From IMG/VR virus record IMGVR_UViG_3300044643_000527, positions 1 to 62,905 of that record: a DNA stretch of 62,905 bases; one strand, given 5' to 3'. The position numbers were made by a program, and so were the translations under genes. This DNA comes from a virus. Below, piece after piece: positions 10,713 through 46,774 of the stretch; the stretch's first letter is position 1; each line of letters opens with the position of its first letter. Below the pieces are notes generated by a model. It was given only the letters and a program-made list of their open reading frames with translations. It did no database searches and was not told the DNA's origin.

Positions 10713-13700
10713 TATTGGCAGGATTTTATTATCTCTTCTAAATTTGTTCTATTTTGTTCAGGTGTATTGTTTACACCTTCCTGATAAGCTTTAGCCTTAT
10801 CTTCTTCAGCTTTTCTTAAGAAATCATCTACTGACATTTGGCTTTCTTGCATTACAGATTTTTCACCTTCTGTAGGATTATATTCCGGAGGTGTAGTTTC
10901 ACCAGCATTCATCTCACTTTCTGTTATATATTCTGCATCAAATTTACTAATTTCAACTGATATTTTTTTACCTTTTTCATCTTCAAGAATATAATTTTTA
11001 GGAGTAATTTCTTTTACTGTATACATAGTATCATCAAAAGAAAATCTTGAAAATACCTTATCACCTACTTTAATTACATTATCATACTCATCTACTATTA
11101 CTTCCTCCTCTTCTTCTACTATATTTTCAAATATATCTGTTGGTATTTCATAAGCAAGAGCTAGTGCTTCATTGAACCTAGTTAAATCAGCAATTTCTTT
11201 TTCAATTTTTTCTTTACGTTTTTCTTTAACATATTCACTTTCAAATTCATATTTTAAACTTTCAATTTCATTTTGAATATCTCTATAAGAATCTGTTATT
11301 AAACCTTCCTCAGCATTAAGTTGAGCTTTTTCTAACAACTGTACAAGTGACAAATTACTTCTATTTATTCTAGTAGCTGACATTAAACTAAAGATCTTGT
11401 ATTGATAATCTTTAAATTTATTTGCTGCTTCATCAGTAGTTTCAGTTTTTAAGAACTGAATTCTTTTTACTCCTTCATGAATTAATTCTGAAGCATCTGC
11501 CATACTAAGCTCATCAATTAATTCATCTTCTATGTCTTCATCTGTTAGTAATCTAGATGCTTTCATAGTTTCTATAGCCAACTGTTGATTTATTGTAGAT
11601 GGTTTTATATCTTCACTTTGAAATTCAAAATGCTTATCATAATAATTTTTAAAGTTCTTATCAGCCTCTAACTGCTCATTAATAAAATCACTATCATCCT
11701 CCAGCACTGATTTGTCTATATCATCAAATGAAACATCAGCCTTAACATTTTTTAATGCATCAGATTGTCTTTTTAAATTTGCTTCCGATTTATTTAAGTC
11801 GTCCTTATACTTTTTAATAATACTTTTAATAGTTTCTTTTCCACTGTAAGATCTTAATGCTTTTTTCTTTTGCTCAAGTAGATCTGCAATATCTTTTGGA
11901 ATAGTAATTTTATCTTTAGTAATTGAATTATTAATTAACTTTTCTATCCTTATAATTTTATCAATGTTTTCTTTAGTTTCTTCATCTGTAATTTCATTTA
12001 ACTTATCTCTAAATAATTGATATCTAAGTGATATGGCTCTCTTAGCTCCCGGAGCTAGTTTACCTTTCTTCTGAGGAAACAATTTATCCATCTCTTTTTG
12101 TACAGACTCTCTATACAAAGGAACTAAGAAATCAAACTTATATGGATTTTTAGTTTGTTCAAACTGTTTTTCATTAAATGGTTTTCCAGTTTTTGGATCT
12201 ATATCATTATTTACAATTATATTTCCATCAGCATCTCTTTTATATTTTATCTCTTTATAAATATTACCTCTTCCTGGAGCACCCGCTGCTATTACTTGAT
12301 TTGTTTCTTTATTAGATTCTCTTTCAACAGGAAGCATTGCTAGACCAGCTATCTTTCTATCTATGTTCCTTTCTAACATTGTAGCATAACCTGCAGTCTG
12401 AATGGTATATTCATTTCTTTTTGAATAAACTTTTTTCTTAGTGCTTTGATTATTAAAGTTTAAGAACTTCTTATTTTCTCCAGACTTAATATCTACTACA
12501 TATATACCATCTTTATCTGCTAAGATAAGGTCAATCTCCCCAGCAATTCTATCTTTCCTACCATACTCATCTTCAATATCTGAGTCAAATACTACAAGAT
12601 CTCTACCAACTATATACAGCTCTCCAGAATCTACTCTTGCTTTAATAGTATCAAGATATGCAATGAGATTATCATAAGCTTCTTTGGTTATTATTTTTTC
12701 ATTGAACTCAGGTTTCTTTCCAGACTCTAAATAATCTTTTGCTAAGTCAAAGAAGTTACCTGCAACTCTACTATCTTCATATGAGTTCTCTGCAAAGAAA
12801 GAATTTATTATATCTTTGGTAGTATTACGTTTTGTTGCTGTATCAAAATTATCTTTAGTAGTTGGTTGAGCTGTTTTGTTTAAAGCAGATATCTCTTCAA
12901 ATTGATTTGATACAAAAGCATGTGCTTCTTCAATTTCTTTTACTAGTGTAGGATTTAATTTTTTATAGTCTTCAGCATTCATATGTGCTAAATACCCCTC
13001 ATAACCGGTAACATCAATATTACCTAATTTACTTTGCCAATCTTTTAAAATACTTGCCCCATAACTATAGTTAAGTATGTCTCCTACACCATTATTATCA
13101 AACTCAAATTCTTCAGTAGTAAAATTATCTAATAGCTCTCGGTCATTTACTTTTACTTTAGATTTAGCTTTTGAATAATTGTAATTTTTATTTAAGCTAT
13201 CAAGTATTTGTTTAATGATAGGATTATTATATCCATCTTTATATGTGTCAGCCATTCCTTTAACCAACCATTCATTAGTGTTAAAGAAGAAAGGATACCA
13301 TTTACCTTTAGTTTTACTACTAGTTCCTTGAGAGCTTCTATATATTGGTATAATGGCCCCATCAATATCAAATATAATAGCATCTCTACCACCACCTAAA
13401 TCAAACAAAGTTGCTCCATTATTCTTTTTTACCAAACCTCTTTCAAAAAGCACATCTAAAAATTCTTCTAGCTCAACATCTTTATTTTCAGCCGCAGCAT
13501 CAAGAGTATTAGTAATGATATTAGCTCTTACTTGTCTTCTTTCTATATCGGCTGTAGTATCTGTAGAAACAGGAGCTGTAGTAACACCATCAATTTTATT
13601 TTGAATCTCTACAGCTTGCTCATATAATGCTTCTTTCTTAGCAGCATCTTTTTCTTCATCTGCTTTTTCTAAGATAGCAACCTTTTGTTTTTCTAATTTA

Positions 13701-16700
13701 ATTTGTTCAGGTGTTAAGCTTGGTAATAGCTTTAACTCATCTTCTAAAGCATCAAAGAATAACTTATTAGTTCCCGGTAATGCTTCTTCATTTGACTCAG
13801 ACAAAGTTCTTAATCTAGAAACAAATTCTTTTGCAGATGTTGGATTAAGTCCATTCTTACCAATAGTTTGATCAAAAACTGTATCTACACTTTCTTGACC
13901 TTGGTATTCATATTCCTCATCTATAACATCTTGCATAGCTTGGGTCATTCTTCTGTGGAATTTCCCATTTATTCTGTATGCTTTTTGTCCTTTTCTTAAA
14001 CCTGTTACTTCATCATCTTCTGTAAGAGTAACTCCCTTTTCAACTTTATTCTGAGCTTTAAATAACTTTTGTATACTTCTGACAGATTCTTTTATTTCTT
14101 CTGGATATTTTGCAAACTGTCTTGCTGCAATAATTACATTAAGATTTTTTAAATCCAATGCTAATCCGTCTATTCTTTTTTGTGCTTCTTTTATTGCTTC
14201 TTTTTCAGAGACAGGATCTAAAAATTCTAGTTCTTCATTTTCTCTAGTAAGGCCATCTGCAACAGCATCTCTTATGTCAATAAGCTGTTCAAGAGTTCTG
14301 TTTTTAGTATCTACAGTTGCACCATTAACAGTAAGAACAGTTTCTTTTTCAGAAATAGTGGGTCTGTTTTTATCATTATACTCATCAAAGTATTTTTTAT
14401 TTTCCGGTCTAGAATACCATTGCTCAAATGTTTGTTGGTCTAAATCAGAATCTTCTACTAGTGCATTTTGTTCTTCTGCAGAAAGAGTATCAACATACTC
14501 TTCTTGATACTTTAAATATAGTTCATTCCTAAAGTCAATCAAGTCTGGAGTATCCAGATTAGTTTCTGGAGTTACTTCTTCATAAGGAATTTCTAAATCT
14601 AAAGATTCTTTATCCGCAGCATATGCTTTATATACTCCCTCTATTTGTTCATTGTAGGCATTTGTAATTCTTTCAACTTCTACCGGATCAGGTAGCATTT
14701 CAATTTTATACTTTTTACCTTCAGTAAATCTATCTTTTATTTTTCTAATATCTACAAGCTCCCCATCAGCATTGTCCATATGGATATTTCCATCCTTATC
14801 TTTGAACAATACCATTGGTTCTGAATCTTTGTCAATCTTAAGCTCTACATATTCATCATTAGCTAATTGATCTACAGCTTCAGTAATTGAAAAAGTTTTG
14901 TTACGGTCTTTACCTTTTATCTCTCCAGTTTCTGTTTTTGTAGGTTTCTTTACAAGCTTATCTATCTCAGCTTGTTTCTTTGCTTCTAAATCATCAATAT
15001 CTTTTTGATAAGCATCATCTATTATCCCTGTTTTTTTAGGGTTCTGCTTTGATTTTAATTCATTGTATTTTTCAAAATAATCTTGATAGATTTGAGCATA
15101 TTCTTTACTGCCTAGTTTATATATTTCTTTAGTAATGTTGTTAAAGATTTCTTTAGGAGGAACACCATTTTTCATATAGTTTTCCATATCCTCAAGACTC
15201 ATATATAATCCTTTGTCAGCTAGTTCATTTAACAAAGCATTGGCTCTTACTTTATCCATCTCAGATGAAATAAGATCCTCAAAGTATTTTACTCTTTTTT
15301 GATTTTGAACTCTTATCCAATCTGCATTTCTTCTTACTACATCTAAAAATGCATCTGGATCATTTAATACTTCAATATAGTTTTCTATACTTAATGCTTC
15401 ATGACCAAGTTTAGTATGATCCATTAGTAGTTCAAACATCTCATCTAAATCTTCATTAAAGATTCTAGTCCCTGTATGCTTACCAAGTGTTTGAATGTAT
15501 GTATTAAATGAACCTTTTAGTTCAGAAAGTACTTGTGTTTTAAGTTCTTCATTATCCAAGCTTCCAAGATTATCATCCATGTATTTAATGATGTCTTCAG
15601 TAGTAGCTTCTTTACCAGTTTCCTTTTGTATTTCTTCAGCAATCTCATTTGAATAACTAGCTCTATTGAAGAATGCATCAAATACTTTATATTTTTCTAA
15701 GAAGTCTTCTGTGATATTAATTTTATCTTGAATGATTTGAACTTTATTTCTATCATTTGTAGTCTCCTTTTCTGCTTGTAATTCTTTTCTTAAAATATCC
15801 AGCTCCTCAACCATATCTCCTTGGTTAATTTGACCATTTGGAGTTAGCGGTTTAAACAATAAATTTCTTTGTCTATTGCTAATATTTTTGAGTTTAGGAT
15901 TGGCATTAAACTTTGCATCTATCTCTGCTCTTCTTTTTAAAGCATCATCATATGCTTCATTAAAGAAGACCATGTTTTTATTAGCAATGTTCCAAGCATT
16001 GTGCAAGATTACTTTTTCCTCATAATTTGAATCTTCCGGATTTAAACTATTTATATCAACAGGATTTGGATTTTTCTTTTCTACTTTATCATATAGATTT
16101 TTTATCTTATCTAATCTAGCAACAGAATTATCTATACGAGTTCTATATTTAGGGACTTGTTCTAAATCAATATTTACTGCATCAGCAAACTCCTCATCAG
16201 TAAGGTCTTTTAATCCTTCAAGTTTTTCTTTAAATATACCAAAAGTACCAGTGCTTTTAAGTTTTTCAACTTGAGCTATGTATGCTTCCATTTCTGAATC
16301 AATACCAGCTTTTTTGTTTTCTCTATTCTTTACTTGACCAACTACATCTTGAGCACCAAGATTTTGCATTTCCACAGACATGAAAGTTGCAAGATCCATT
16401 TCATTTAGTTGATTAACTAAATTTTGAGCAACAGTTGTTTGAGCCTCTTTCCATTTTTGATATTGTTCTTTATGAAACATTCTATTCCAGTTAGAACTAA
16501 GAAAAGGAACTGCACTGTTTAACGGTCCCGCAAGAGTCCCCATTAAAAATCCAGATGCAAATGTTTCAGCACCCTTTGCTGTAAAAGGATTTTGTTCTGC
16601 CCATGACTCACTAAAATAATCTAACTTGTCTCTATTAATAGCACGCATTGCTGCTCTAGAGTATAGCATGTTTTGAAGAGTAGGGCTTTTATAGCTATCA

Positions 16701-18304
16701 AGAAAATATCTTTCGTTTGCTTCTGCAATTGTTTCCTGTAAGTTTTCTTGAATACCTTCTGTAAAGTTAGCCTTAAAATAACCAACAGTATTAACTGCAG
16801 ATTTATGTATAGGATTTTTTAACCAACCTTTAGCTAAGTTTTTTAAATTGTTTTTTTCAATAGCAAACTTCTTTGCCGCTCTATCATAAACAACTTTACC
16901 TATTTTACCAAAGTTCTTACTACCTTCTCTTGATGCAATATCATATATGTCATCTGTAGTAGATTTAATAAAGTTTCTTATACCACCTTTAGGTCCAGTA
17001 ATATTATGGAATGTAATACCATTACTTACATATATTAATGCTGCATTCTCTAGTAAAGTTTCATAAGAAGCATCCTTTGCTTGTTTTTCTATTTCCGCAA
17101 GCTCTTTATTATTAGGTACTTCATTATTATTTGCTATGTATGCTTCATTATAAAGTTTATCATAAACATGATTCTCCACCATACCAGCTTCTAGTCTAGC
17201 CTCAGATAGTGCCATGTTTATTTTTCTAACATCTCTATAGAATCCACCAGCAGTTTTTGATAAGATAGCAAGGTCTGTTAAGTTATCAGCTTGTTTAAAA
17301 CCTTTAAATGCATGCATTGTATTTTCCAAAGGATTCAATGCTTGAACACTTGACTTTAAAAACTCAGATGATCTTGCAGCATTCCAGAAATTTCTTGCAC
17401 CACTTGCTGTTTCCGTAAGTTTTAATGTTCTTCTTACAGCATCATAACCTTTCTTTGCTGAATTTAATCCCTTAAATAGTTTAGGGATTTTTAATAAGTT
17501 ATTTGCAGTTGTTGCAATTAAACTTGTACCACCTGTTGGTGCAGCTAATAATGCTCCGACAGCTTCTTCTGCTATTGCTTCACCAATAATACCTGCAGTA
17601 TAACCAAAGTTCATTACAGTATTATTAACAAAACCAGATACTCCTCCTTTACTAGAGTTACCTATAGCAGCTGCTTCTTCATAAAGTCTTGCATCTTCTA
17701 AATCTCCAGAGGTAAAATCCCCTTTTAACATTTTACCTAAACTCTTAGGCCCAGAAACAAAACCTCTTGTAAATAATGGAACAAAAGAATGTGTCATCAT
17801 TCTAGAGAAGTCATCCCATCTAGTTGTTCTAGCATTAAAGTTTGCTTCATTGTTTCTTAATGGAGAGAACCCTACCTCATCAAATTTCTTTTGTCCATAT
17901 GCTGCATATCTTTTATAGAATGCATTACCATCTGGTCCAGCATTATATGAATAGATTTTAGCATAGTTATTCTTATCCTGATTAGCCTGAAAGAAAGATT
18001 GAATAAATTGTCCAGTAGATTTATTATACTGATTAATATCAATAGGCTTCTTTGGAATACTAGGATTAACCGCATTAGTCTTAACAAGATTATGTTTAAT
18101 CTCTCTGTTAGGTCTATTTAGATTTTCAATGTTTGCAATAGATGGAAAAAAAGATTCATTCCTTGTGGGAATGTTAGCTTTTGGCATATCAATTAAATCT
18201 CCTTCAAATGCAGATAAACCTTTTGCATCTGGTATAGGTTGATTAATTTTTCCATACTCCGGTCCTAGTGGATCTAAAGGATCAAATAATTCTTGCTCTG
18301 CCAT
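10712..18304 (-). CDS. Giant crAss-like cargo protein (2530 aa) with PD-(D/E)XK nuclease core
   Basis: Giant protein immediately upstream of the polymerase gene (TAATG overlap), in the slot where crAss-like phages encode capsid cargo proteins that are ejected into the cell. Residues ~225-265 form an Ala/Gly-rich, membrane-compatible stretch (FGYTAGIIGEAIAEEAVGAL). Much of residues 640-1500 is acidic, helical and coiled-coil-like. Residues ~1840-2010 carry a PD-(D/E)XK nuclease signature: GEIDLIL with D1925, then VVDIKSG with D1938 and K1940, then a QTAGYATML segment that fits the RecB/Cas4 Q-x3-Y motif. Near residues 2410-2475 a segment starting VGDKVFSRF looks like a small KOW/SH3-like barrel. 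The nuclease may trim phage or host DNA during or after ejection, but that is inference. The other regions are unrecognised. Confidence 0.85.
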   Translation of the reverse strand: MAEQELFDPLDPLGPEYGKINQPIPDAKGLSAFEGDLIDMPKANIPTRNESFFPSIANIENLNRPNREIKHNLVKTNAVNPSIPKKPIDINQYNKSTGQFIQSFFQANQDKNNYAKIYSYNAGPDGNAFYKRYAAYGQKKFDEVGFSPLRNNEANFNARTTRWDDFSRMMTHSFVPLFTRGFVSGPKSLGKMLKGDFTSGDLEDARLYEEAAAIGNSSKGGVSGFVNNTVMNFGYTAGIIGEAIAEEAVGALLAAPTGGTSLIATTANNLLKIPKLFKGLNSAKKGYDAVRRTLKLTETASGARNFWNAARSSEFLKSSVQALNPLENTMHAFKGFKQADNLTDLAILSKTAGGFYRDVRKINMALSEARLEAGMVENHVYDKLYNEAYIANNNEVPNNKELAEIEKQAKDASYETLLENAALIYVSNGITFHNITGPKGGIRNFIKSTTDDIYDIASREGSKNFGKIGKVVYDRAAKKFAIEKNNLKNLAKGWLKNPIHKSAVNTVGYFKANFTEGIQENLQETIAEANERYFLDSYKSPTLQNMLYSRAAMRAINRDKLDYFSESWAEQNPFTAKGAETFASGFLMGTLAGPLNSAVPFLSSNWNRMFHKEQYQKWKEAQTTVAQNLVNQLNEMDLATFMSVEMQNLGAQDVVGQVKNRENKKAGIDSEMEAYIAQVEKLKSTGTFGIFKEKLEGLKDLTDEEFADAVNIDLEQVPKYRTRIDNSVARLDKIKNLYDKVEKKNPNPVDINSLNPEDSNYEEKVILHNAWNIANKNMVFFNEAYDDALKRRAEIDAKFNANPKLKNISNRQRNLLFKPLTPNGQINQGDMVEELDILRKELQAEKETTNDRNKVQIIQDKINITEDFLEKYKVFDAFFNRASYSNEIAEEIQKETGKEATTEDIIKYMDDNLGSLDNEELKTQVLSELKGSFNTYIQTLGKHTGTRIFNEDLDEMFELLMDHTKLGHEALSIENYIEVLNDPDAFLDVVRRNADWIRVQNQKRVKYFEDLISSEMDKVRANALLNELADKGLYMSLEDMENYMKNGVPPKEIFNNITKEIYKLGSKEYAQIYQDYFEKYNELKSKQNPKKTGIIDDAYQKDIDDLEAKKQAEIDKLVKKPTKTETGEIKGKDRNKTFSITEAVDQLANDEYVELKIDKDSEPMVLFKDKDGNIHMDNADGELVDIRKIKDRFTEGKKYKIEMLPDPVEVERITNAYNEQIEGVYKAYAADKESLDLEIPYEEVTPETNLDTPDLIDFRNELYLKYQEEYVDTLSAEEQNALVEDSDLDQQTFEQWYSRPENKKYFDEYNDKNRPTISEKETVLTVNGATVDTKNRTLEQLIDIRDAVADGLTRENEELEFLDPVSEKEAIKEAQKRIDGLALDLKNLNVIIAARQFAKYPEEIKESVRSIQKLFKAQNKVEKGVTLTEDDEVTGLRKGQKAYRINGKFHRRMTQAMQDVIDEEYEYQGQESVDTVFDQTIGKNGLNPTSAKEFVSRLRTLSESNEEALPGTNKLFFDALEDELKLLPSLTPEQIKLEKQKVAILEKADEEKDAAKKEALYEQAVEIQNKIDGVTTAPVSTDTTADIERRQVRANIITNTLDAAAENKDVELEEFLDVLFERGLVKKNNGATLFDLGGGRDAIIFDIDGAIIPIYRSSQGTSSKTKGKWYPFFFNTNEWLVKGMADTYKDGYNNPIIKQILDSLNKNYNYSKAKSKVKVNDRELLDNFTTEEFEFDNNGVGDILNYSYGASILKDWQSKLGNIDVTGYEGYLAHMNAEDYKKLNPTLVKEIEEAHAFVSNQFEEISALNKTAQPTTKDNFDTATKRNTTKDIINSFFAENSYEDSRVAGNFFDLAKDYLESGKKPEFNEKIITKEAYDNLIAYLDTIKARVDSGELYIVGRDLVVFDSDIEDEYGRKDRIAGEIDLILADKDGIYVVDIKSGENKKFLNFNNQSTKKKVYSKRNEYTIQTAGYATMLERNIDRKIAGLAMLPVERESNKETNQVIAAGAPGRGNIYKEIKYKRDADGNIIVNNDIDPKTGKPFNEKQFEQTKNPYKFDFLVPLYRESVQKEMDKLFPQKKGKLAPGAKRAISLRYQLFRDKLNEITDEETKENIDKIIRIEKLINNSITKDKITIPKDIADLLEQKKKALRSYSGKETIKSIIKKYKDDLNKSEANLKRQSDALKNVKADVSFDDIDKSVLEDDSDFINEQLEADKNFKNYYDKHFEFQSEDIKPSTINQQLAIETMKASRLLTDEDIEDELIDELSMADASELIHEGVKRIQFLKTETTDEAANKFKDYQYKIFSLMSATRINRSNLSLVQLLEKAQLNAEEGLITDSYRDIQNEIESLKYEFESEYVKEKRKEKIEKEIADLTRFNEALALAYEIPTDIFENIVEEEEEVIVDEYDNVIKVGDKVFSRFSFDDTMYTVKEITPKNYILEDEKGKKISVEISKFDAEYITESEMNAGETTPPEYNPTEGEKSVMQESQMSVDDFLRKAEEDKAKAYQEGVNNTPEQNRTNLEEIIKSCQ

Positions 18305-23911: not shown

Positions 23912-26900
23912 TTATATTAAACCAGCTAGTTTTAATAAACTTTGAAAATCATTCATGTTTATCTTATGTCCACTAGCATTTGACTTTTTACTTTTAATAG
24001 CCCCACCTTTTCTTATTATACCTTCAAAACCTTGTATGCCTTCTTTACCTGTTCTTGCATTCCATTCACCTTTATTTATTCTTTCTTCTGCAGCTTGTTT
24101 TTCACCCATTGCAAATTCAGTCATTCCCGGTATATATTTAGTTCTTCTTTCAGTAGCATAATTTTGATCATCTGCAAGATTAGCTCCAAAATCTAAAACC
24201 CCTCTAGAAGCTTTAGTATAATCTATTGGCCCCTTCTCTTCTTTAATTTTTAGTTCTGCTGTCTGTGGTCCTTGATTTGCTACACGTGGTCCTTGTCCTG
24301 CATACATAGGATCATAACAAGGACTGTTAGGATCTTTAACTTCTTCTTCAGTACATGGTCCAGTTTTACCTTGACCTATTCCACCAGGTTGTGTAATACT
24401 ATTTGGTCCATAAGATACAGAAGAAAAATTAATACCTAGATCTGCCATTGGGATATCTCCACCATAAGCCATATAGTCAGGAACATATCCTCCAAAAGCA
24501 TAACCAAATCTAGGATCTGTTTGACCTTTGCTAATATCAATATTACTTGGTATTTCCATGTCTTGCATGTTTGACATGTCTGGTCCAGTAAATTTAAGAA
24601 CATCACCAGTTCTTAAATCTCTATTTGCCATTCTATTTTCTTTTCTATCCGCTCTTCTGTCAGCTGCATTAATTCTAGCATCAGCTAATCTTGGTCTATT
24701 GTTTTCTCCTGGGAAATTTAATTTTTTATTTAATCCAAACTGATCAGTGTTTCTTGATTTATCATTGGGAGTGGTTCCTGGTGTAGTTGGATTTGTAGAA
24801 AGATTGGTATTAGTAGCTCCTGATTTAATTTGTTCTGGTGTAGCATAAGAAAGAGTTGTTACTCTATCATGCTTTAAACCTAACTTTCCAAGTAAGCCGT
24901 CTGACTTTTCTTTAGAATATCTCATTCCTGTGGGGAGCATTCCTGCGTTAGTAATTGCTGATGCAGTAGCTGCATATTGTAGTGGATTACCAACAGGGCT
25001 AAATGAACTAGGACCTCTACCAAAACCTTTAATTAAATTACCAGCAGCTCCTAAAATACCTGTGCTTGCATATGGACCAAATCCTCCATAATTACCTCTA
25101 GATCCCCATGCAGAATAACTGTCATATGGATTGTATCCACCACCATATCCTTGCATCATTTGTTGTTGACCTTGCATTTGCTGATCATATTTCTTTTGAT
25201 AATCAGTTTCCCAAGTCTTTTGTTTTTCAGCTAATAGTTTATCAAGTTCTTCTTGACTATATGTTTTACCAGTATTTGTAGGATTAGTTTCACTATCTCC
25301 AGTTCCTTGGAATCTATGTAAACCGCCATGCTTTTTAAAATATGGATCAGATGGATCTTCTGAATCTGTATAATCCAAGTCAGATTGATTAATTGGTGGT
25401 TGGAATAAATTTTCTAACATTTGATCATCTACCTGATCACCATATATAAACTTCTGAAGATTACCAAATTGATCTTGCATAGGATTATTTACAAATCCAC
25501 CAGCAGCAAAAGGTAAAACAAATTGAGTTCCAGCAGGAGCTTCTAATAATCCTTGACCTGGGTTCAATAATTTTTGACCTGGATTTAATAACTTTTGTCC
25601 AGGATTTAATAACTTTTGACCTGCTCCTAATGTTCCTTTTGCTCCTTGACCTAAAAGATTTGGACTTTTTAATGCAAAACTTATTGCTTCAGGTGCTCCT
25701 TTAAGTCCTGTTGGTGCAAAATATGATAGAACATCATCATCTGTAAAACCACCATGTAAACTTGGGTCACTTGGACCATAAACACCCAGGTAATTTAATA
25801 TTCTCTCTTTAGCAGTAGCATTTTTTTTAAAAGAATCATATTCTAAATATGGCTTTACTTTAGAACCAAATGTTTTAATAAGTTCTTTGTTTAATTTATC
25901 TTCCAGTTTATTTTTTACCTGTGTTGTTGTCTTTCCTTTATTTGGACCTTCAGTATATTTTTTCTTTTTAGGATCATAACCATACCACTTACTATCTTCA
26001 TTTCTTCCCCAAGAATCTTTTTTCATAGTAACATTACTCCATCTACTTTTCTTAGTAGGTTCTTTGTACCAATCTGGAGTTCTTCCTAATGTCCATTTTT
26101 TAGTTTTAGGATCAAAGCCATACCATTTATCACTCATTGGCCTACCCCACTTATCCTTTCTATTTCTTAATTCCATGGCCTCTCTTGCACCATTAACTTC
26201 AAAAGGACCAGTATTAGAAGTTCCCTCTTGAGTACCTTCTGTATTATTTCCTTCAGCATTTGGAGTAACTGTAGTACCAGCACCTCCACCATTATCTACT
26301 GTAACAGTTCCGTCTGCATTTGGAGTTGCAGTATCTGTTTTTGGTTCTGCAGATTTATTAGCAGCATCAGAATCAGTAGCCTTTGCTACATCTTCAGTAG
26401 ATTTGTTATTTACAGTACTTGCAATTTTTTCAGTAACAAGTCTTCCTTTTGTAGTTTTTCTATAAGGTTGATTGTATCCCCATGAAGAACCTCCACCCAT
26501 TCCTGGGAATGACATCATAGGAAACATTGAAGCCATCATCAGTGGATTAAACTGTACTTCTGCTGATCTTACTCCACCCAATGGTCCAAATGAGTATTTA
26601 GAAGATGTAACTCCTAAAGGTAGGTTTGGTGAACCAAACATTTTTCTATTAGCTCTTCTCATTCTCCATCCTCCACGTTGAGCATAATCCATATCTCCTT
26701 GTGGTTGTTGCATACCTGGCTGTGGCATTCCTTGAGCAAACTGATTATTATACATTTCCTCAGCTTGTTTTTTAAGGAAATGATCTTGAGCTTGTCCTTT
26801 TACTCCAGCAACAAACATGGTTTTATTTCCTGTAGTTCCAGTAGGATTATCTTCAGTACCTCTTACATTAGCTGTGTTAGCTTCTTCTACTTGATCACCC

Positions 26901-27481
26901 TTTGCAGCTTTTCTAAGTTTTCTTACTAGCTTATTTACATAAGATCTTTTATTTGGTACTCCACCATATCTTGCTTCTTGATCCTCATCATCATAAATAA
27001 TATCATTGATCATTTGATCATAGTTATTATCTTCTTCTGAGGTATCTTGCATGCTAGTATCTTCTACAATATCTGCAATAGGTTCATTGGTTACTTCTTG
27101 TTCTTCTTCCTCTGGTGCAGATTTTTCAAATACAGCTGATACAAATTCTAAAATTTGTGGCTCATATTGAGCATACTCTTGTGAAGCTTTATCAAACCCA
27201 TAGATGTTTTGTAAAAGATAATCTTTTATTTCATCTTGCCCATATCCTTGTTGAGCTAATGCGACAACAGTTTGTAAAATTTGTTCTTGAGGATCTTGCT
27301 CAGGTTGTTGTTGCATTGCTTGCTGTGGTTGACCACTTTGCATTTGTTGCATAATACCTTGAGTAACCGGAGTAGCTCCAGTTTCAGCTCCATCTTGAGC
27401 CTTTCTTAACCACTGAGCAGTTTTGTTTATGTAACCCCCATTTCCAAATGGGTCTTTATAAATTCTTACTTTTCTTTTCAT
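23912..27481 (-). CDS. Low-complexity repeat protein, 1189 aa, with GG tags and WYGFDP modules
   Basis: Unrecognised as a whole. It starts with a short basic leader (MKRKVRIYKDPFGNGGY) and the tag WLRKAQDGAETG, followed by Gln-rich and acidic stretches. A second basic tag, KLRKAAKGDQ, appears near residue 190. Two copies of a module with core SDKWYGFDPKTKKWT and SKWYGYDPKKKKYTEGPNKG lie near residues 440-520. A short tandem repeat (LLNPGQK, about four copies) lies near residues 625-645. Several Gly/Tyr/Met segments follow (YGGGYNPYDSYSAWG; FGGYVPDYMAYGG), and a C-terminal RKGGAIKSKK tag ends the protein. The modules recur in the small basic capsid-block proteins, linking this gene to them. 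The composition argues for a disordered, multi-tagged virion or scaffold-type protein rather than an enzyme. A candidate promoter precedes the start. Confidence 0.7.
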   Translation of the reverse strand: MKRKVRIYKDPFGNGGYINKTAQWLRKAQDGAETGATPVTQGIMQQMQSGQPQQAMQQQPEQDPQEQILQTVVALAQQGYGQDEIKDYLLQNIYGFDKASQEYAQYEPQILEFVSAVFEKSAPEEEEQEVTNEPIADIVEDTSMQDTSEEDNNYDQMINDIIYDDEDQEARYGGVPNKRSYVNKLVRKLRKAAKGDQVEEANTANVRGTEDNPTGTTGNKTMFVAGVKGQAQDHFLKKQAEEMYNNQFAQGMPQPGMQQPQGDMDYAQRGGWRMRRANRKMFGSPNLPLGVTSSKYSFGPLGGVRSAEVQFNPLMMASMFPMMSFPGMGGGSSWGYNQPYRKTTKGRLVTEKIASTVNNKSTEDVAKATDSDAANKSAEPKTDTATPNADGTVTVDNGGGAGTTVTPNAEGNNTEGTQEGTSNTGPFEVNGAREAMELRNRKDKWGRPMSDKWYGFDPKTKKWTLGRTPDWYKEPTKKSRWSNVTMKKDSWGRNEDSKWYGYDPKKKKYTEGPNKGKTTTQVKNKLEDKLNKELIKTFGSKVKPYLEYDSFKKNATAKERILNYLGVYGPSDPSLHGGFTDDDVLSYFAPTGLKGAPEAISFALKSPNLLGQGAKGTLGAGQKLLNPGQKLLNPGQKLLNPGQGLLEAPAGTQFVLPFAAGGFVNNPMQDQFGNLQKFIYGDQVDDQMLENLFQPPINQSDLDYTDSEDPSDPYFKKHGGLHRFQGTGDSETNPTNTGKTYSQEELDKLLAEKQKTWETDYQKKYDQQMQGQQQMMQGYGGGYNPYDSYSAWGSRGNYGGFGPYASTGILGAAGNLIKGFGRGPSSFSPVGNPLQYAATASAITNAGMLPTGMRYSKEKSDGLLGKLGLKHDRVTTLSYATPEQIKSGATNTNLSTNPTTPGTTPNDKSRNTDQFGLNKKLNFPGENNRPRLADARINAADRRADRKENRMANRDLRTGDVLKFTGPDMSNMQDMEIPSNIDISKGQTDPRFGYAFGGYVPDYMAYGGDIPMADLGINFSSVSYGPNSITQPGGIGQGKTGPCTEEEVKDPNSPCYDPMYAGQGPRVANQGPQTAELKIKEEKGPIDYTKASRGVLDFGANLADDQNYATERRTKYIPGMTEFAMGEKQAAEERINKGEWNARTGKEGIQGFEGIIRKGGAIKSKKSNASGHKINMNDFQSLLKLAGLI
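25551..25623 (-). repeat. 21-bp tandem repeat inside the 1189-aa gene
   Basis: About 3.5 copies of a 21-base unit encoding GQKLLNP repeats. Copies differ by one or two bases (GACCTGG versus GTCCAGG), so the repeat is old enough to have diverged while keeping the peptide. It preserves the reading frame. Confidence 0.8.
25925..26160 (-). repeat. Two diverged copies of the WYGFDP protein module
   Basis: Within the 1189-aa gene, segments encoding SDKWYGFDPKTKKWT and SKWYGYDPKKKKYTEGPNKG lie one after the other, each preceded by a KDxWGR element. A third copy is encoded at 45844-45951 in the 223-aa gene. Similarity is mainly at protein level, suggesting duplication followed by drift under selection on the peptide. 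Confidence 0.75.
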
Positions 27482-27540: not shown

Positions 27541-29361
27541 TTAATCAAGTTCCTCTATAATAAATCCTCCTTTTCTGTATCTTTCTATTTCTTTATCTGT
27601 TAATTCCATAATGAATCCACCATCTTTCATTTGACCTTGAATATTAGCATTGTATTGTTCAAATACATTTTGACTACTTGGTTCCATTATTTTAGAATAC
27701 TGATCTAGTATCTGTTGTCTAGGATCTACTACTTCTGTCTTAGCTGGTTTCCAATTACTATAATCATCATCATGTAATTTTCTTTCTCTTTCAGCTAACT
27801 CCTTTTGTTTTAATTCAAACTCAAGGTTTTTATCTTCAACCATTTTGTCATACTCTTCCTGAGTAGTTGGTTTAGGTTGATCTCCAAATGTACCAACTTC
27901 ATCATCATGCTCATGGTCATGCTCATTTTCTTTATCAGAGTTTGATTTAGTTTTTTCTATAGGTTCAATATGCCAAGGCTCATGACCCATTCTAAAATGT
28001 AAACCATACTTCTTAGCATTAGCATGTGCCCATTCTGTAGCCTTACTATTTGCATCTTTTCCTAAGAACTGACCATTTGCATTTAAGTCTACTGCAAGAC
28101 CTTTATTATGGAATGATCCTCCCGGAGGAGCTACCCATTTTCTTGCTTTCTCTGGAGAACCATATTTCTTAAGAGCTTGTTGCCAAAGCTTCTCTTGTTT
28201 CTCATATGATCTATATCCTGAACCAACTCCTAAGTCTACTCCTTGTGCTCTAGCATCTAAAATCATTTGAGTAAGTCTCTGTGAGAAATCAGCTGTTAAA
28301 CCTTGAGTACCACTAACAGAACCTCCGTCATCTTTTCTAATAAGATTACCTACAGAGTGTCCATAACTAGCTTTAGTTAATGAAGGTACAGAAATATCTT
28401 CTACTATGTATCCACCTCTTCTGTATTCTTCTATCTCACTATCATCAAGTTCTACATCCATGAATCCACCTTCTTGTCTAAATCCAATACCTCCAGGTCT
28501 ACCTCTTGTTTGACTTAAATACTCAGCTTCTCCTTCCATTGTATTTGCATCTTCATACATAAGAGGTTCAACTGCTCTATCATACTTTATTTGATCTGGT
28601 ATGAATCTATCAAGATCTTCTGTCCAAATATTACCTGTCATTTCAGGATAAATGTTTTTTAGATTACTTATATACTGGTCTACTTCATCACCCTTTCTTG
28701 TATAGTATGATGCTGCTTGTTCATCTGATGCGACAATTGGAGGTCTTTGTTGTGGAAGATTGGGATTACTTCTTAATCTTCCAGTTCTATTTTGCCAAGC
28801 ATGAACTAACTCATGATTAAGTTCAGCATCATTTGCATTAGGATTTAAATTAATTGTATCTGATAATGGATCATAATATGATCTACCATCTTCTGGTAAA
28901 TAAGCTATACCTACATTTTGTGGTAAATCAATTTCTCCTCCTGGTTGAAAATATGGAGAGTATGGATCATAGATCTTATTCTTTGCAGACTTTATTTTTT
29001 TAAGTAAAGGGTTCTTTGAAAACAATCTATTCTTAGCCATCAGGCTTCTTGAATATTTCTTAGATGGTTTTTTACTTCCTCCCTTCTTTGCTTGTGGTAT
29101 TTCATATACCATGTCTCCCTCAAACTGATATTCATTACCAGGAGTCATGTATTGTGTGTTACCTAAGTTATCTATACCTAGTAGATCATCTTCTACTCCT
29201 TCCATAGTTATTCTACCACTAGGTGTTGGTACTGCTGTAGGTTGTCCAGGATAATCCCATTGTCCTCTCTCAGAAATAATAAACCCATTAGTAAATTTTT
29301 TTAATTCATTGGGTCCTCCTGGCAAACCTAAAGTTTCATAGTCTTCAAAAAAATCTTCCAT
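27541..29361 (-). CDS. Two-domain peptidase: HExxH zincin plus M15 (VanY-like) peptidase
   Basis: The 606-aa protein holds two apparent peptidase domains. Residues ~140-290 contain LNHELVHAWQNRTGR (H183, E184, H187) and a downstream EGEAEYLS near residue 277 that could supply a third zinc ligand, as in gluzincin-like phage metallopeptidases. Residues ~355-470 match the M15 D,D-/L,D-carboxypeptidase family: GSGYRSYEKQ, FHNKGLAVDL (H418, D425) and GHEPWHIEP (H464), all zinc ligands or catalytic positions. The domains are separated and followed by two copies of a GGF/Y module (GGFMDVELDDSEIEEYRRGG; GGFIMELTDKEIERYRKGG). A basic KKGGSKKPSKK stretch lies near residue 95 and a His/Asp-rich segment (HDHEHDDE) near 482. 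The M15 domain probably cuts peptidoglycan peptides during entry. The zincin could process virion proteins. It overlaps the muzzle-like gene by TAATG. Confidence 0.82.
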   Translation of the reverse strand: MEDFFEDYETLGLPGGPNELKKFTNGFIISERGQWDYPGQPTAVPTPSGRITMEGVEDDLLGIDNLGNTQYMTPGNEYQFEGDMVYEIPQAKKGGSKKPSKKYSRSLMAKNRLFSKNPLLKKIKSAKNKIYDPYSPYFQPGGEIDLPQNVGIAYLPEDGRSYYDPLSDTINLNPNANDAELNHELVHAWQNRTGRLRSNPNLPQQRPPIVASDEQAASYYTRKGDEVDQYISNLKNIYPEMTGNIWTEDLDRFIPDQIKYDRAVEPLMYEDANTMEGEAEYLSQTRGRPGGIGFRQEGGFMDVELDDSEIEEYRRGGYIVEDISVPSLTKASYGHSVGNLIRKDDGGSVSGTQGLTADFSQRLTQMILDARAQGVDLGVGSGYRSYEKQEKLWQQALKKYGSPEKARKWVAPPGGSFHNKGLAVDLNANGQFLGKDANSKATEWAHANAKKYGLHFRMGHEPWHIEPIEKTKSNSDKENEHDHEHDDEVGTFGDQPKPTTQEEYDKMVEDKNLEFELKQKELAERERKLHDDDYSNWKPAKTEVVDPRQQILDQYSKIMEPSSQNVFEQYNANIQGQMKDGGFIMELTDKEIERYRKGGFIIEELD

Positions 29362-32300
29362 TATCTAAGTGATGCTTGGTTCTTACTATTTACTATCTTA
29401 AGTATAAAGTTAATATCTCTTTCTTCTTGAGTTGCAAGTTTTGACAAGAACAGATAGTTTAAGTAATGTCTGAATCTTTTTCTTTGTAACTCAGGTTTTG
29501 CATAGTTTAAGTTATTTGCATTTAGAGTTTTGATATATCCATTTGGTTGTGTATTCCAAATAACTTGATCTGAATAATTACCAAGAAGCTGAGTTGTTCC
29601 TGGAACTAAAGGTCCTGTTGGAGGATAATCTGATCCTATTGGAAACTCTCCTCTGTCTTTTGTAATATCCCAGAACTGGTTGAATCTATATTTGTTTTCT
29701 TCTTTTGAGAATAATATATCAAATGAAGCTAAGTTAGATTGATTTAGTTTAGGATAATCAAGTGAAAGAGTAATGTTGTTCTTAGGGAATATATTTAAGT
29801 TTAAGTAACCAGATACTTGCTCTGTGTTAGATACCACAGCTTGATTAAAGTTTGCATCTAGAACATGGAACTGATCTACACAGTTAAACTGTGAGTATCT
29901 GTATGCCTCAAGAATATATTCAAATGATTTAACTACTGTAGGTGATTGCCCAGTAACTATAGGATATTCAATCTCAAATGGATATTGAGTTCCATAAAAA
30001 TTACAAAAGTCATCACATGAATTATTATGTTTCCATATTGTATTTCCTTTAACAGTAAATACATTTGATTTTGCTGAGAATGCTAAGTCTGGATGCCAGT
30101 CATGATAACTAAGGAATACATTCATCTTAGGGTCATAACTTACTGTCCAAGATGCATTATCAAATATAGCTGGATCTCCCAATGGATAATTAACTCCTAG
30201 ATAATTAAATGTATTTTTATCAGAATTATATGATATCTTACCTAGTCCAGATTTTAGTTTATAATCTTTCTTTGTAAAATATAATATAGAGTCTTTATTA
30301 TCATACATTGCTTGTACACCAATACCTGCAACTGGATTATCTATATATGGGAAATCTGGAAAATCATCTGTAAGTTTATATGGTAAAAATAAATTAAACC
30401 ACCACTTAAGACCATTTTGAGAAATCTCTTTTAATCCTTCACCGTAAGAAAAGATTTTTCCTTGGTTCATAGATACATAGTAAAGACCTGCAGGAGCATA
30501 TATAACTGATCTAATATTTTGTGATGAACCATATTCAAAAGATGGGTCAGCATTAGATGAAGATTGAGGAGGTGTAGAAAATAAACCTCCGTCACCTATA
30601 GTAACTTTCTTACCTAAGTTTGTAGTCAACTGATCTATACCTTGATAGAATAATGGTCCAGTAGTAGGGAATGTAAATATCATACCCGTCATACCTGTAG
30701 GCTTAACTGTAGTTATCCTATCTCTAAATTGTACATAGTTAAGTGGTAAATAAATTAACCAGTTATTTTCATAAGACTGATCATCTTGATACAATGAATA
30801 TAATGATCTATTAGGATAGTATGTAAAACATAAATCTGCCACATAAGGATTGTAATTAATTCCCTGTAAAGAACCGGCAGATATATATTGCGTAAAGAAC
30901 TTAGTAACACTTAATGAGTAATCATAGTTATAGAAGTTACCTTTAGTAATTACCTCTGGATCCATATCAAATAACTCCCGCATATCTGTATACTGATATG
31001 GAATATAAGGTTGTTGATATTGGAAAGTTCCCTGTGATCTAAAATCTACAAGTACATTGCTCTCTACAAAGAAATCTCTTACACCTGAATTAGCTAGATA
31101 GAAGTATGAATTCTTTATTGACAAGAAACCATCATAACCTAAAGGTCCACCTATCTCATTATCATCAGATCTTCTATATGCATCATTATCTAAATTATAA
31201 TAATCTATAGGCATTGGTCCTGTACCAAAAGTTGGTTGTGCTGTAATTAAAGATTGTATTGTAGATATAACACTTAGAACACCACCAGCAAGAGGATTCT
31301 CATCTTTGCTATAAGGTTGTGTATTCATCCAATATCTTGCAGTTGGGATATTATTATATAAAGCATAATTCCAAGGAGTGCCATCTGGAAGATTATATAA
31401 CCAGTTATAAAAGAACAACATTGTATTCTTTTCAGTAAATCTATTTATATAAGTATCTCCACCAAAAATTGTTTGTGTAGGTAACAATACTGTATGTTTA
31501 ACTTGTATTGGGTTTGGAGTTTGTGTATTACAAAAAGATGATGTAGTTACAATTGAAACATCTCCACCTGGATTTGTTGCTGGATCATAAACATTGTTAG
31601 GATCAAATCTTACTTCACATGATGTAGCAACAACTTGTTTAATACTTTCTAATTGCCCATATTGATTTTGAACATTATATTTTAATCCAACATAGTGACT
31701 AGCAATGTTTGACAAGAAACTATTAAATCTTGTTTCATTATCAAATGACATTCCAAAACTTGAAGTAGCAACAGCCTTACCAAGATTAATTAAACTATTA
31801 TCTTCTTGGTTACCTGGAACTATAACACCACCCGCATAAGTACCAATTAAGTTAGGTCCTTCAATTGGAGCAGTAAGTGGGTTTAAATTATTAGGTGCAG
31901 CAGTTCTTAAAAATGCTGTCTTAGTTCTATTAAGATTGTTTATACTATATCTCTGAAATGCACCAGTACCATCAAGAAAATCTGGGACCTCTTGATTACT
32001 ATCAGTAAGATAAAAACCTTCCTCTAAACTAAATCTTTGTAATAAGCTTCTTACTGGCGGTACAAATCTTGCATAGAAACCATGTGCAAGAGATTGTAAT
32101 GCGTATTGTCTAAATGGTAAAAATGCTTGTATTACTCTAATTGTAGTATTAAATCCTTCTGAGAAATAATAAGGTATCATTACTGAAGGATATAAGAACG
32201 TAGGAGCACCAGGAATATTCTGAAGAACTGATGCAGCAGTTTGTTCGTATAATAATGTTGGTGTTGTATATAATCCTGCATCATTAAACTTATCTGAATA

Positions 32301-34880
32301 AAATTCAAATATTTGTTGCAATGTAGGATTAGCAGGCAAAATTCCTGGAACAGGAGAAGGTCCACCAGCATTTGGTGCAAACACTGATCCTAATTGACCA
32401 CCTAAATCAAAGTAATCATCTAAATCTTGTTTGTATGCTTGGTATATTAAATTTGCTTGTTGCACATTTAAAGGTGCCAGATCAAAACTAACACCAGTTG
32501 TATTATTACCAGCTATAACTGGAGCTTTTTGATAAGGAACTTGAAAATCTGGTATTGCTGGAAATTGAGTTTGTTGCTTACCTAATAGATTTAAAAATGC
32601 ATTTCCTAAACCAACAAGAACTGATAAGTAGAATGCTTCATTACTCATCAACTGATTCTCAGGATGTTTATTTGGAATACTAAACTGATGAACACCATTA
32701 CCTTCTAAACTTCCATAAATCTTTAACTCAGTTTGGTTTAAGAATGGATTTCTAAAACTCGTATCTGGAGATGTAAATGAAAGTAAGTTTCTAGGTATAT
32801 TTTGATTTACAAAAGTTTCTTGACCTTGACTGTTTATGTTTATAGTTTTAATAAATGGATCATTATATCTATAATCATGATCTGCAGGATTAAGTGTATT
32901 ACCTAAAGGTATAGTGCAGTTAAATGGATAGTTAGCATAAAGACCCTTTCTATTTCCTTTTGACTGACCTTGTATCTGGTAATCTCTAAAGTTATTAATC
33001 ATACCTTTAGCTATGATACTTTGGTTACCTTCTCTTGATCCTCTTAGAATTTCATAACCTACTACTCCAGGTATTGGATTTCCATCATTATCTTTTGGAT
33101 ATATAATTCCTTGGAATCTAACACCCATAATTCTAATGTATTTTTTTCCATCAGATGGGTTTACTGCAAAGTTAGCATTATCAACTCTAAAGTGATATGT
33201 CTCAGGTGACAAAGCATTATCAGGAAACTTATGATGTCTTATGGGTTTACCACATAAATCAAAATTTGGATTAGTAGTTCCAGTCCAACATTGTGAACTT
33301 GAATTCCATACTTCAGGTTGGTTAGGTGGATAAAGTTCAGAAGATTCCCAATATCCCATTTTTCCAAATGCTAAAACTTTTCCACCATCAGGTAATATTG
33401 GATTGTTACCTACATATGTACCAGTTTGAGTTGCTGTATTATATGTTTGAAATAACATTGTATCATCTGCAAAACTATTTGGATCTAAATATGGAGCATT
33501 CTGTCCATATGGTGCATCATCCAATAATGTTTGTGTACTTCCATTGGGGGCAATAAACGTATATGGTTCTGCTGGTCTTCCAGGTATATGATAAGAAGCA
33601 GATTTATCTCCTGTGTTATATACCCATCTAATAAAGAATGAATATACTTCATCTCTAAGGTATCCAGTCTTTGATCCACCTTTAATGTAATAGTCTTCAG
33701 GATACTCTACAGTCTCCCAATAAGTTTCAATTAAGTTTGCTAATGGTTGATAGTTAAAATCAAATTTAGACTTTGGAGCTATTCTTAATAAGTACTGACC
33801 AACATTAACCATTTGGTCAGAAGTTTCATATACGGGATTTTGCAAAATAACATTTCCTACTGGAACAGTCTCAAGTGATAGTGCTATATCATCTAATACT
33901 ATAACAGACTGAGAAGTTGAATAGTAACCAATTTTCCTTGCTATAACATTTTCATTTATTGATGCTACTATAACAAGCTCAAACTGATCAAAGTTATCAG
34001 TATCTAAATCTAGTTTAACTTGTAATGATCCTTGAGATAAATTTCTTTCAGTATATACTGGTTGTAAATTACTTGGAGAAAAATAGTTTGTTACTTTTTG
34101 TGTTTTAATTGTATAAGCAACAACTGCAAAGTAAGTTCCATTCTCAAGCGTACCTGTTCCTGGGGCAATTGATAACTCTACACAAGGTGTTTTTACAAGT
34201 GATGCTAATCTTATTTTATCACAGTCAAGTTGATTTATATCATTACAAATTATACATGGTCCTGCTGTACACTTTTGTTCCCAAGCTGTAATAGGCCAAA
34301 GAGATTGAGCACCTGTGCCATCTAAATAATGATTATAATTAGATCCAGCAATAGCAGCATTTGATCCTCCCCATGTTAATACTGGATCTGGCCAAGTTTT
34401 TGGATCACCAATGTTTAAATATCTATCTACATTTAAACCATCAGCCCAATATACTTCCCAAGAACAATCACCATTTTGTTTTGATGCACCTGTAATTAAA
34501 TTATACTTGCTAAAGTTTAAACAGACACCAGATACTATAGGTCTATATCTACAGAAGTCTTCTTCATATAAACCTATTTCTGAGTTTACATTTTTACCAT
34601 TAACATATGCCACAGTAAAAACTGCCCATTTGTCAGCAAACAAATGTATTAATCCAATAATGTGTTTTTCTCCCTGCATGGTCTCACCACTGGTACCACA
34701 GAGATAATTTGAATCTTCATTAGATAATGTACCTAACTTACCTTCATCTGTATTATTGACCATGTTTCTTGCATGCGTCCACAAACCAGAATCTACAAAT
34801 GAAGGGTCAGTATCTTTATTAAGACCTTTTGAGAAACTATTGGTAACTATTTGACTAGTGTTTTGAATTTCCTTACCCAT
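29361..34880 (-). CDS. Tail muzzle / P22 gp10-like stabilization protein, 1839 aa
   Basis: The start MGKEIQNTSQIVTNSFSKGL, then NKDTDPSFV and TWTHAR-like text (SGLWTHARNMVNN) around residues 20-45, is typical of the very large tail stabilization protein of crAss-like phages. That family is annotated as P22 gp10-like and described as the muzzle in the crAss001 virion. It closes the short tail below the ring proteins. The body is rich in Asn, Tyr, Pro and aromatic residues, as expected for beta-propeller-type repeats, with no catalytic motif. It follows the ring/adaptor candidates with TAATG overlaps and precedes the peptidase and cargo genes, which matches crAss-like gene order. The family call rests on the N-terminal pattern, size and neighbours. 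Exact structural equivalence is inferred. Confidence 0.8.
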   Translation of the reverse strand: MGKEIQNTSQIVTNSFSKGLNKDTDPSFVDSGLWTHARNMVNNTDEGKLGTLSNEDSNYLCGTSGETMQGEKHIIGLIHLFADKWAVFTVAYVNGKNVNSEIGLYEEDFCRYRPIVSGVCLNFSKYNLITGASKQNGDCSWEVYWADGLNVDRYLNIGDPKTWPDPVLTWGGSNAAIAGSNYNHYLDGTGAQSLWPITAWEQKCTAGPCIICNDINQLDCDKIRLASLVKTPCVELSIAPGTGTLENGTYFAVVAYTIKTQKVTNYFSPSNLQPVYTERNLSQGSLQVKLDLDTDNFDQFELVIVASINENVIARKIGYYSTSQSVIVLDDIALSLETVPVGNVILQNPVYETSDQMVNVGQYLLRIAPKSKFDFNYQPLANLIETYWETVEYPEDYYIKGGSKTGYLRDEVYSFFIRWVYNTGDKSASYHIPGRPAEPYTFIAPNGSTQTLLDDAPYGQNAPYLDPNSFADDTMLFQTYNTATQTGTYVGNNPILPDGGKVLAFGKMGYWESSELYPPNQPEVWNSSSQCWTGTTNPNFDLCGKPIRHHKFPDNALSPETYHFRVDNANFAVNPSDGKKYIRIMGVRFQGIIYPKDNDGNPIPGVVGYEILRGSREGNQSIIAKGMINNFRDYQIQGQSKGNRKGLYANYPFNCTIPLGNTLNPADHDYRYNDPFIKTININSQGQETFVNQNIPRNLLSFTSPDTSFRNPFLNQTELKIYGSLEGNGVHQFSIPNKHPENQLMSNEAFYLSVLVGLGNAFLNLLGKQQTQFPAIPDFQVPYQKAPVIAGNNTTGVSFDLAPLNVQQANLIYQAYKQDLDDYFDLGGQLGSVFAPNAGGPSPVPGILPANPTLQQIFEFYSDKFNDAGLYTTPTLLYEQTAASVLQNIPGAPTFLYPSVMIPYYFSEGFNTTIRVIQAFLPFRQYALQSLAHGFYARFVPPVRSLLQRFSLEEGFYLTDSNQEVPDFLDGTGAFQRYSINNLNRTKTAFLRTAAPNNLNPLTAPIEGPNLIGTYAGGVIVPGNQEDNSLINLGKAVATSSFGMSFDNETRFNSFLSNIASHYVGLKYNVQNQYGQLESIKQVVATSCEVRFDPNNVYDPATNPGGDVSIVTTSSFCNTQTPNPIQVKHTVLLPTQTIFGGDTYINRFTEKNTMLFFYNWLYNLPDGTPWNYALYNNIPTARYWMNTQPYSKDENPLAGGVLSVISTIQSLITAQPTFGTGPMPIDYYNLDNDAYRRSDDNEIGGPLGYDGFLSIKNSYFYLANSGVRDFFVESNVLVDFRSQGTFQYQQPYIPYQYTDMRELFDMDPEVITKGNFYNYDYSLSVTKFFTQYISAGSLQGINYNPYVADLCFTYYPNRSLYSLYQDDQSYENNWLIYLPLNYVQFRDRITTVKPTGMTGMIFTFPTTGPLFYQGIDQLTTNLGKKVTIGDGGLFSTPPQSSSNADPSFEYGSSQNIRSVIYAPAGLYYVSMNQGKIFSYGEGLKEISQNGLKWWFNLFLPYKLTDDFPDFPYIDNPVAGIGVQAMYDNKDSILYFTKKDYKLKSGLGKISYNSDKNTFNYLGVNYPLGDPAIFDNASWTVSYDPKMNVFLSYHDWHPDLAFSAKSNVFTVKGNTIWKHNNSCDDFCNFYGTQYPFEIEYPIVTGQSPTVVKSFEYILEAYRYSQFNCVDQFHVLDANFNQAVVSNTEQVSGYLNLNIFPKNNITLSLDYPKLNQSNLASFDILFSKEENKYRFNQFWDITKDRGEFPIGSDYPPTGPLVPGTTQLLGNYSDQVIWNTQPNGYIKTLNANNLNYAKPELQRKRFRHYLNYLFLSKLATQEERDINFILKIVNSKNQASLR

Positions 34881-46501: not shown

Positions 46502-46774
46502 TTAACAATTCCACTTTCTTAAAGAAAGAGCTTTTCTAGTTGGTCTTCCTTTTTCATCTTTCATTGGCCCTGGCATTCCAGACATTCTAGCACAAAAACT
46601 TTTACGTCTTTTAGCATCCTTGCTTCCAGCTTTTAGTTTTGATGGTTTAGTAGTTACAGCTGTCTGAAGTTTACTTCCTGGATTAGCTGCTCTATAACTA
46701 GCCACACCTTTAGCATTAAGACCTCCTGTTGGGTTCTTACCTTCTTTTCTTTGCCATGCTGGTGACTTTGCCAT
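46502..46774 (-). CDS. DUF6321-like basic protein, 90 aa
   Basis: Reads MAKSPAWQRKEGKNPTGGLN, then GVASYRAANPGSKLQTAVTT, RRKSFCARMSGMPGPM and GRPTRKALSLRKWNC. The AWQRKEGKNPxGGLN start and the SFCARMSGM ... ALxLRKWNC end match the DUF6321 family as I remember it, found in phages and large DNA viruses. It is full length for that family. The start codon lies inside the end of the 96-aa gene, with a 38-base out-of-frame overlap, and the conserved first residues support that start. Function unknown; strongly basic. Confidence 0.78.
   Translation of the reverse strand: MAKSPAWQRKEGKNPTGGLNAKGVASYRAANPGSKLQTAVTTKPSKLKAGSKDAKRRKSFCARMSGMPGPMKDEKGRPTRKALSLRKWNC

Follow-up and report, generated by a model that had tools for sequence, protein, structure and literature searches.

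Mobile accessory domains are a known kind of element in phage proteins. The cell-wall-binding domains of phage lysins, such as LysM (PF01476), are small, repeated, swapped apart from the catalytic domain and found beside lysozymes, and the module described here shares these properties. It differs from them in having no LysM or consistent Pfam match, in occurring also in proteins free of hydrolases, and in that its binding is putative. The internal head proteins of T4 (IPI-IPIII and Alt) offer another comparison. IPIII needs no more than its first 10 residues to be packaged (PMC9026906; PMC3012670), with residues 4 and 7 mainly serving to target the protein and residues 8 and 10 governing its processing (PMC9026906). 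The T4-like carriers of our module have a leader that fits this rule and diverse mature parts, and a gp21-type protease is encoded in the phage; unlike the T4 proteins, they have the module as another constant part that follows the leader and is also found in non-T4 phages, and their packaging is presumed here. In crassviruses the cargo genes are gp45-gp50 (PMC10172136). P0003, the larger module-bearing protein of our phage, lies in a gene block that matches the one in PhiCrAss001, but P0003 has no sequence match in 50,697 phage records. Phage-ejected proteins are less well understood than most other parts of the virion, and those of crassviruses come with few sequence clues. The module family appears to be new, as does its occurrence in cargo-like proteins from phages that are unrelated to each other.

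The window (the whole stretch of DNA that was analyzed) is a 62.9-kb virus record whose long open reading frames lie mostly on the minus strand. We call it crAss-like because its TerL is ~24-26% identical to those of crAss-like, Flavobacterium and Cellulophaga phages, and because its portal, capsid protein and terminase were assigned, by PHROG id alone, to phrog_6547, phrog_11589 and phrog_6681. The features that bear on the module are the following.

10712-18304, minus strand: 2530-aa protein with a partial match to the crAss putative RNA-polymerase subunit, a virion cargo (7% of query, best E 3e-5)
23912-27481, minus strand: P0003, a GG-rich protein of 1189 aa that holds the module twice in tandem, by position a candidate cargo (ejection) protein
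26051-26161, minus strand: module copy 1, core only, without the GPNKGKT end (profile search E 3.7e-21)
25907-26023, minus strand: module copy 2, core plus a GPNKGKTTTQV end (profile search E 2.6e-24)
27541-29361, minus strand: 606-aa neighbor upstream of P0003, with a VanY D,D-carboxypeptidase domain (PF02557, E 3.2e-21)
29361-34880, minus strand: 1839-aa structural protein, probably the muzzle (an inferred name), matching structural proteins of csAssE-Sib and Cellulophaga phi4:1/phi17:2
45814-46485, minus strand: P0001, 223-aa Lys-rich GG-tagged protein whose C-terminus is module copy 3
45832-45948, minus strand: module copy 3, at the C-terminus of P0001

The presence of three copies in these two proteins, as first reported, was confirmed. 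Smith-Waterman comparison of copy 3 with P0003 gave a score of 146, while the maximum over 2000 shuffles was 66, and copy 1 scored 100 against copy 2, with a maximum of 61 over 5000 shuffles. A profile made from 16 rows of other phages, with the window and L027 rows excluded, was searched against 38 window proteins and recovered copy 1 at an i-E of 2.5e-14, copy 2 at 2.7e-17 and copy 3 at 1.8e-16. Within P0003 the two copies start at residues 441 and 487, a spacing of 46 residues. The core printed in the initial annotation is exact in copy 3 only; copy 1 contains KKWT and ends in GRTPDWYK instead of GPNKGKT, and copy 2 reads WYGYDPKKKKYT at the core.

Aligned over 21 copies, the core is K-D-x-W-G-R-x4-K-W-[YF]-G-[FYW]-[DN]-P-x-T-K-x-[YWF], with a tighter form of D-x-W-G-R-x4-K-W-[YF]-G-F-[DN]-P-x-T-K-x-Y. 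The D, the R, the second W and, two residues past that W, a G are invariant, three further aromatic positions are almost invariant, and Glu stands at the position of the first Trp in copy 3 alone (1/21). The module had been described as ~40 residues long and ending in GPNKGKT. It is a real unit, but its size is ~24 to 38 aa with a constant part of ~24 residues, and the GPNKG end occurs in only 9 of the 21 rows, so we regard that end as optional.

AlphaFold2, run on the 21-row alignment, gave a model with a mean pLDDT of 80, rising to 87-90 in the core. The model has short strands, of which a hairpin-like pair flanks a DPKKKK turn, and the GPNKGKT end is followed by a C-terminal helix; WYGFDPKTKKY is predicted to form a beta-hairpin within a Trp/Tyr-rich core. 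A Foldseek search of the model against PDB and BFVD returned nothing at E<0.001; an ExoX-like C-terminal domain was named in two weak BFVD rows, at E 2.9 and 5.5. Searched against PDB sequences, a single module copy gave one row (E 5.9) and the profile none. No model in Pfam, PHROGs or PDB covers the module, nor does any NCBIfam model in the carriers scanned, and known cell-wall-binding families did not match it. When the 21 rows were scanned with Pfam, LysM and WW matched none, OCRE matched one (E 0.019) and KOW one (E 0.19), with no family consistent. The module presumably resembles the WW and OCRE-type aromatic mini-domains, which we take to be short aromatic hairpins of the YxxDPxTxxY type; it differs from them in these scans and in lacking a fold match.

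A shorter stretch, SKWYGFSPKD, had been noticed in a nuclease and thought possibly due to chance.

59017-59850, minus strand: PDDEXK exonuclease (phrog_298) with SKWYGFSPKD at 59674-59712, a family motif and no module copy

It matches 13 of 39 module columns, and the KDxWGR half is absent before KWYG. The stretch recurs in the same nuclease in 10 of the 24 records searched, and also in L053. We therefore rejected it as a module copy. Its score of 53 was reached by 0 of 2000 shuffles of the nuclease, but it is read as a motif of the phrog_298/PDDEXK family itself.

We then asked where else the module occurs. Pattern and profile searches, with overlaps removed, gave full matches in 26 IMG/VR records (5/24, 21/28 at E<1e-6 and 2/7, two weak rows at E 0.002-0.004 being left uncounted), and the module occurs in both crAss-like and T4-like phages. 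These hold 22 distinct copies, one of them truncated, and several of the records are near-duplicates. An extra divergent copy with a longer first loop was read by eye at L237:1740-2645, ahead of a relative of the L226 domain, and it follows that the present searches miss divergent copies. In the pattern scan the strict module was found in 20 of 29 viral loci and in 0 of 113 bacterial and archaeal genome loci. None of 395 Bacteroidota genomes matched the profile, although with phage records the same profile reaches E values of 1e-17 to 1e-21. These counts argue that the module belongs to phages, and we rejected the possibility, raised at the outset, that it is a common host-derived repeat. Among 50,697 named phage records and 72,556 plasmids there was no convincing match, the best rows having E 6-9. 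A literature search, with subscription papers mostly outside its coverage, found no description of the module; among 5.39 million papers the motif letters matched one, a viral genome survey, and this match was taken as chance.

The proteins that carry the module (carriers) were grouped as follows, together with one window protein that shares a gene position with carrier C.

Carrier A: P0003-like proteins, in the window, G003, G024 and its near-copies, G037 and G041
Carrier B: P0001; of the 22 relatives found, 2 have the module, each of them 100% identical, and 20 lack it
Carrier C: Lys/Pro-rich proteins of 430-534 aa, in L053, L056, L057, L059, L064 and near-copies (TerL 63-75% identical)
48339-49457, minus strand: 372-aa Lys/Pro-rich protein without a module, at the gene position held by carrier C in relatives
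Carrier D: L055, Phage_lysozyme, module and LysM
Carrier E: L061, Phage_lysozyme2, module and LysM
Carrier F: L052, 1270 aa, SET, Phage_lysozyme and module
Carrier G: L054, 786 aa, module close to the N-terminus
Carrier H: L194, giant protein, module close to the N-terminus
Carrier I: L225, with two copies spaced 35 residues apart, and L226, with a single copy; a domain without assignment follows the module

With the module masked, BLASTP of carriers A to H, which left out carrier I, found nothing shared among A, B, C, G and H; D and F share a lysozyme, and D and E share the LysM part. By this comparison the module is present in at least eight unrelated protein contexts, at the N-terminus, in the middle or at the C-terminus. 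A peptidoglycan hydrolase domain lies in the same chain as the module in L055, L061 and L052 and not in P0003 or P0001, and in L055 and L061 the module is followed by LysM as a domain of its own. Two distant P0003 homologs (L028 and L029) lack the module. In the 430-534-aa carriers a transmembrane helix was too weakly indicated to be asserted, the best 19-residue hydropathy being 0.95-1.22. It had also been asked whether the module always accompanies GG-tagged proteins. The crAss-like carriers do have [KRYM]GG motifs, but six others (L055, L061, L225, L226, L237 and L194) have none, and GG tags were rejected as an obligate partner. At the level of sequence, these results establish the module as a phage-only mobile mini-domain that has moved among unrelated phage proteins.

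Several of these families vary in other ways. Members of the P0001 family (45814-46485 and L005-L024) have a fixed N-terminus, MKTCKMGCGKMKxGG, and exchangeable C-terminal tails, among them LSKLPTxVRNKMGYMKKGG, AKLAAMAAPKNKITRADIITA and a CPGG...C tail; the 20 relatives without the module, G003 among them, end in such other tails. Residues 77-182 of P0001 matched only themselves among the loci compared. At L232:9255-10157 the module is duplicated in tandem, with near-identical copies 35 residues apart, and a relative (L226/L233) has one. The C-terminal domain of the L226, L225 and L237 carriers has no Pfam match (L225 and L226 scanned) or NCBIfam match (L226 and L237 scanned), gave two PDB rows (E 0.057 and 1.7) and PHROGs rows at E 0.0057 or worse, and was modeled at a pLDDT of 46; for this model, bleomycin hydrolase came up at E 1.7. 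His89 and Cys195 are invariant in it, a hint that this domain may be a papain-like enzyme.

The P0003 gene is flanked by those of the muzzle-like structural protein and of the giant protein that resembles an RNAP subunit, and its block resembles the crassvirus cargo block (PMC10172136). P0003 had no tblastn match to gp45 or gp46 at E 0.01 (50,697 phage records), and neither P0003 nor P0001 matched anything in named phages, so it is gene position that would place both proteins in the virion. The gene upstream of P0003 (27541-29361; also L048, L052, L069 and L080) keeps its termini while its enzymatic middle changes, from a VanY peptidase in the window to SET, lysozyme and module in L052 (G024).

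The T4-like phages provided a direct view of exchange. G026, G031, G055 and G056 are syntenic at the module locus, with carriers D, E and I between the same two neighboring gene families; the loci being orthologous, the four count as one lineage. Between G026 and G031 the 400-base flanks are identical at 367/400 and 349/398 positions, the module at 88/114 and the post-module part at 120/150, while the pre-module part (483 long) is identical at 261 of 421 aligned bases. The enzyme has been exchanged, and the module and the part following it have been kept. In G055 and G056 it is the leader and module that are kept, the remainder being replaced by another domain. One locus thus holds a constant module with swapped partners: a lysozyme, another lysozyme and a domain without assignment. 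G026 encodes the T4 capsid protein Gp23 (E 1.2e-73) and a T4-type (gp21-type) prohead protease (E 2.8e-34); G031, G055 and G056, which are fragments, had no match to either.

All four carriers begin with a leader of the form M..h..hh.E. The pattern was defined after these leaders had been viewed, so the four carriers are no independent test of it; the internal-Met and crAss-like controls are independent. It was found in 17 of 109 genes of L230-L233, compared with none of 444 internal Met positions, 1 of 206 genes in crAss-like relatives and one gene of 38 in the window. The leader, which many genes besides the module carriers have, may mark internal head proteins of these uncultured phages. 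In the register of the T4 rule, the G026 and G031 leaders are hydrophobic at residues 4, 7 and 8 with Glu at 10, and G055 and G056 have Glu at 9. The fit to this rule is confined to the T4-like carriers and does not extend to the window carriers.

From the leader peptides and the gene positions, we infer that the carriers are packaged and ejected proteins. The likeliest role that we propose for the module itself is docking to the envelope or cell wall, to which its place in lysins points. It would act after ejection, since in the T4-like carriers a leader would already see to packaging and since in two lysins the module sits between lysozyme and LysM. Phages would fuse the module to a range of proteins that travel within the particle and are released at infection. 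In the window these would be the 1189-aa protein of the cargo locus and a small basic protein; in relatives the partner would be a Lys/Pro-rich protein, and in T4-like phages it would be lysozymes. In the T4-like carriers the separate leader would do the packaging, and once ejected the module would dock on the host cell wall or envelope and keep the enzyme or channel protein fused to it where entry takes place. Several points speak against docking: known cell-wall-binding families did not match the module, LysM could account for all wall binding in L055 and L061, and most carriers have no recognizable hydrolase. Other points that weigh against the reading as a whole are the lack of matches to P0003 and P0001 in named phages, the Glu at 9 in G055 and G056, the single lineage formed by the T4-like loci, with T4 capsid and protease genes in G026 only, and the lack of a fold match. 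Taken whole, a mobile mini-domain of packaged, ejected cargo that docks its carriers to the host cell wall or envelope after ejection is a reading we hold tentatively, as one that may well be right but to which we would not yet give even chances.

Rather than acting at the host surface, the module might bind a part of the prohead or portal and so recruit the proteins fused to it into the particle as cargo. Unrelated carriers with the module N-terminal, central or C-terminal, and genes that lie in virion blocks, would fit such a packaging role. However, the T4-like carriers already have a leader that fits the T4 capsid-targeting rule, and the phages that bear the module differ in their capsid proteins, which makes a single conserved docking partner hard to name. 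We consider recruitment into the particle unlikely.

Somewhat less probable still is that the module is a robust folded hairpin that links domains and has no ligand. Its place between lysozyme and LysM in two lysins, its occurrence inside low-complexity Lys/Pro-rich stretches and its optional GPNKGKT end would suit a spacer. The four invariant residues and three near-invariant aromatics would not, as such positions are rarely kept in linkers, and in G055 and G056 the module comes directly behind the leader and joins no second known domain.

The three window copies are basic, with core net charges of +2, +3 and +5, and some carriers, P0001 for one, are very rich in Lys, as would be expected if a basic aromatic patch tied internal proteins to the packaged genome. 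Over 21 copies, however, the net charge of the 26-residue core ranges from -1 to +5, with five copies at 0 or lower. Charge is therefore not a conserved property, and a DNA-binding tag is disfavored as a quite improbable account.

The initial annotation had proposed a small domain copied within the genome; the small mobile domain stands, but the rest was too narrow, as unrelated phages share the module and core DNA identity among copies 1-3 is 62-70% (69 core bases), which disfavors recent copying in the window genome. That a segment of the 1189-aa protein was simply copied within the genome, with no wider meaning, is very improbable given this divergence and the many independent carriers elsewhere, even though copy 3 is nearest to copy 2 (68% identity in A2) and the nearest relative, G003 (TerL 95% identical), has tandem copies in P0003 and none in its P0001 homolog.

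Returning to docking after ejection, the block stays while the cell-wall-cutting part is swapped, and for this reason the module is probably an adapter at cell entry. A bolder form of this reading is that virion cargo has a new adapter domain, exchanged by crAss-like and T4-like phages, which would hold injected enzymes or channel proteins to the envelope during genome entry, with T4-like phages swapping head-packed lysozymes, behind a capsid-targeting leader, onto the adapter; we offer it as a rather doubtful possibility. If true, a sequence mark that recurs in cargo across phage groups would help in recognizing cargo from sequence. The swap locus suggests exchangeable lysozymes inside the head of some T4-like phages.

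Two further protein families were noted near P0001. A DUF6321 protein (46502-46774) belongs to a family that is also seen at the C-terminus of phage proteins of far greater length, and DUF6321 may for that reason be another mobile end-domain. The second is listed here.

47807-48145, minus strand: DUF5872 protein near P0001, of a family that adjoins the module gene in T4-like relatives and in L064

DUF5872-type proteins lie at L230:10247-10660 and L064:7382-7729, and the family is present in 14 of 27 module records. Those of the T4-like phages also carry the leader.
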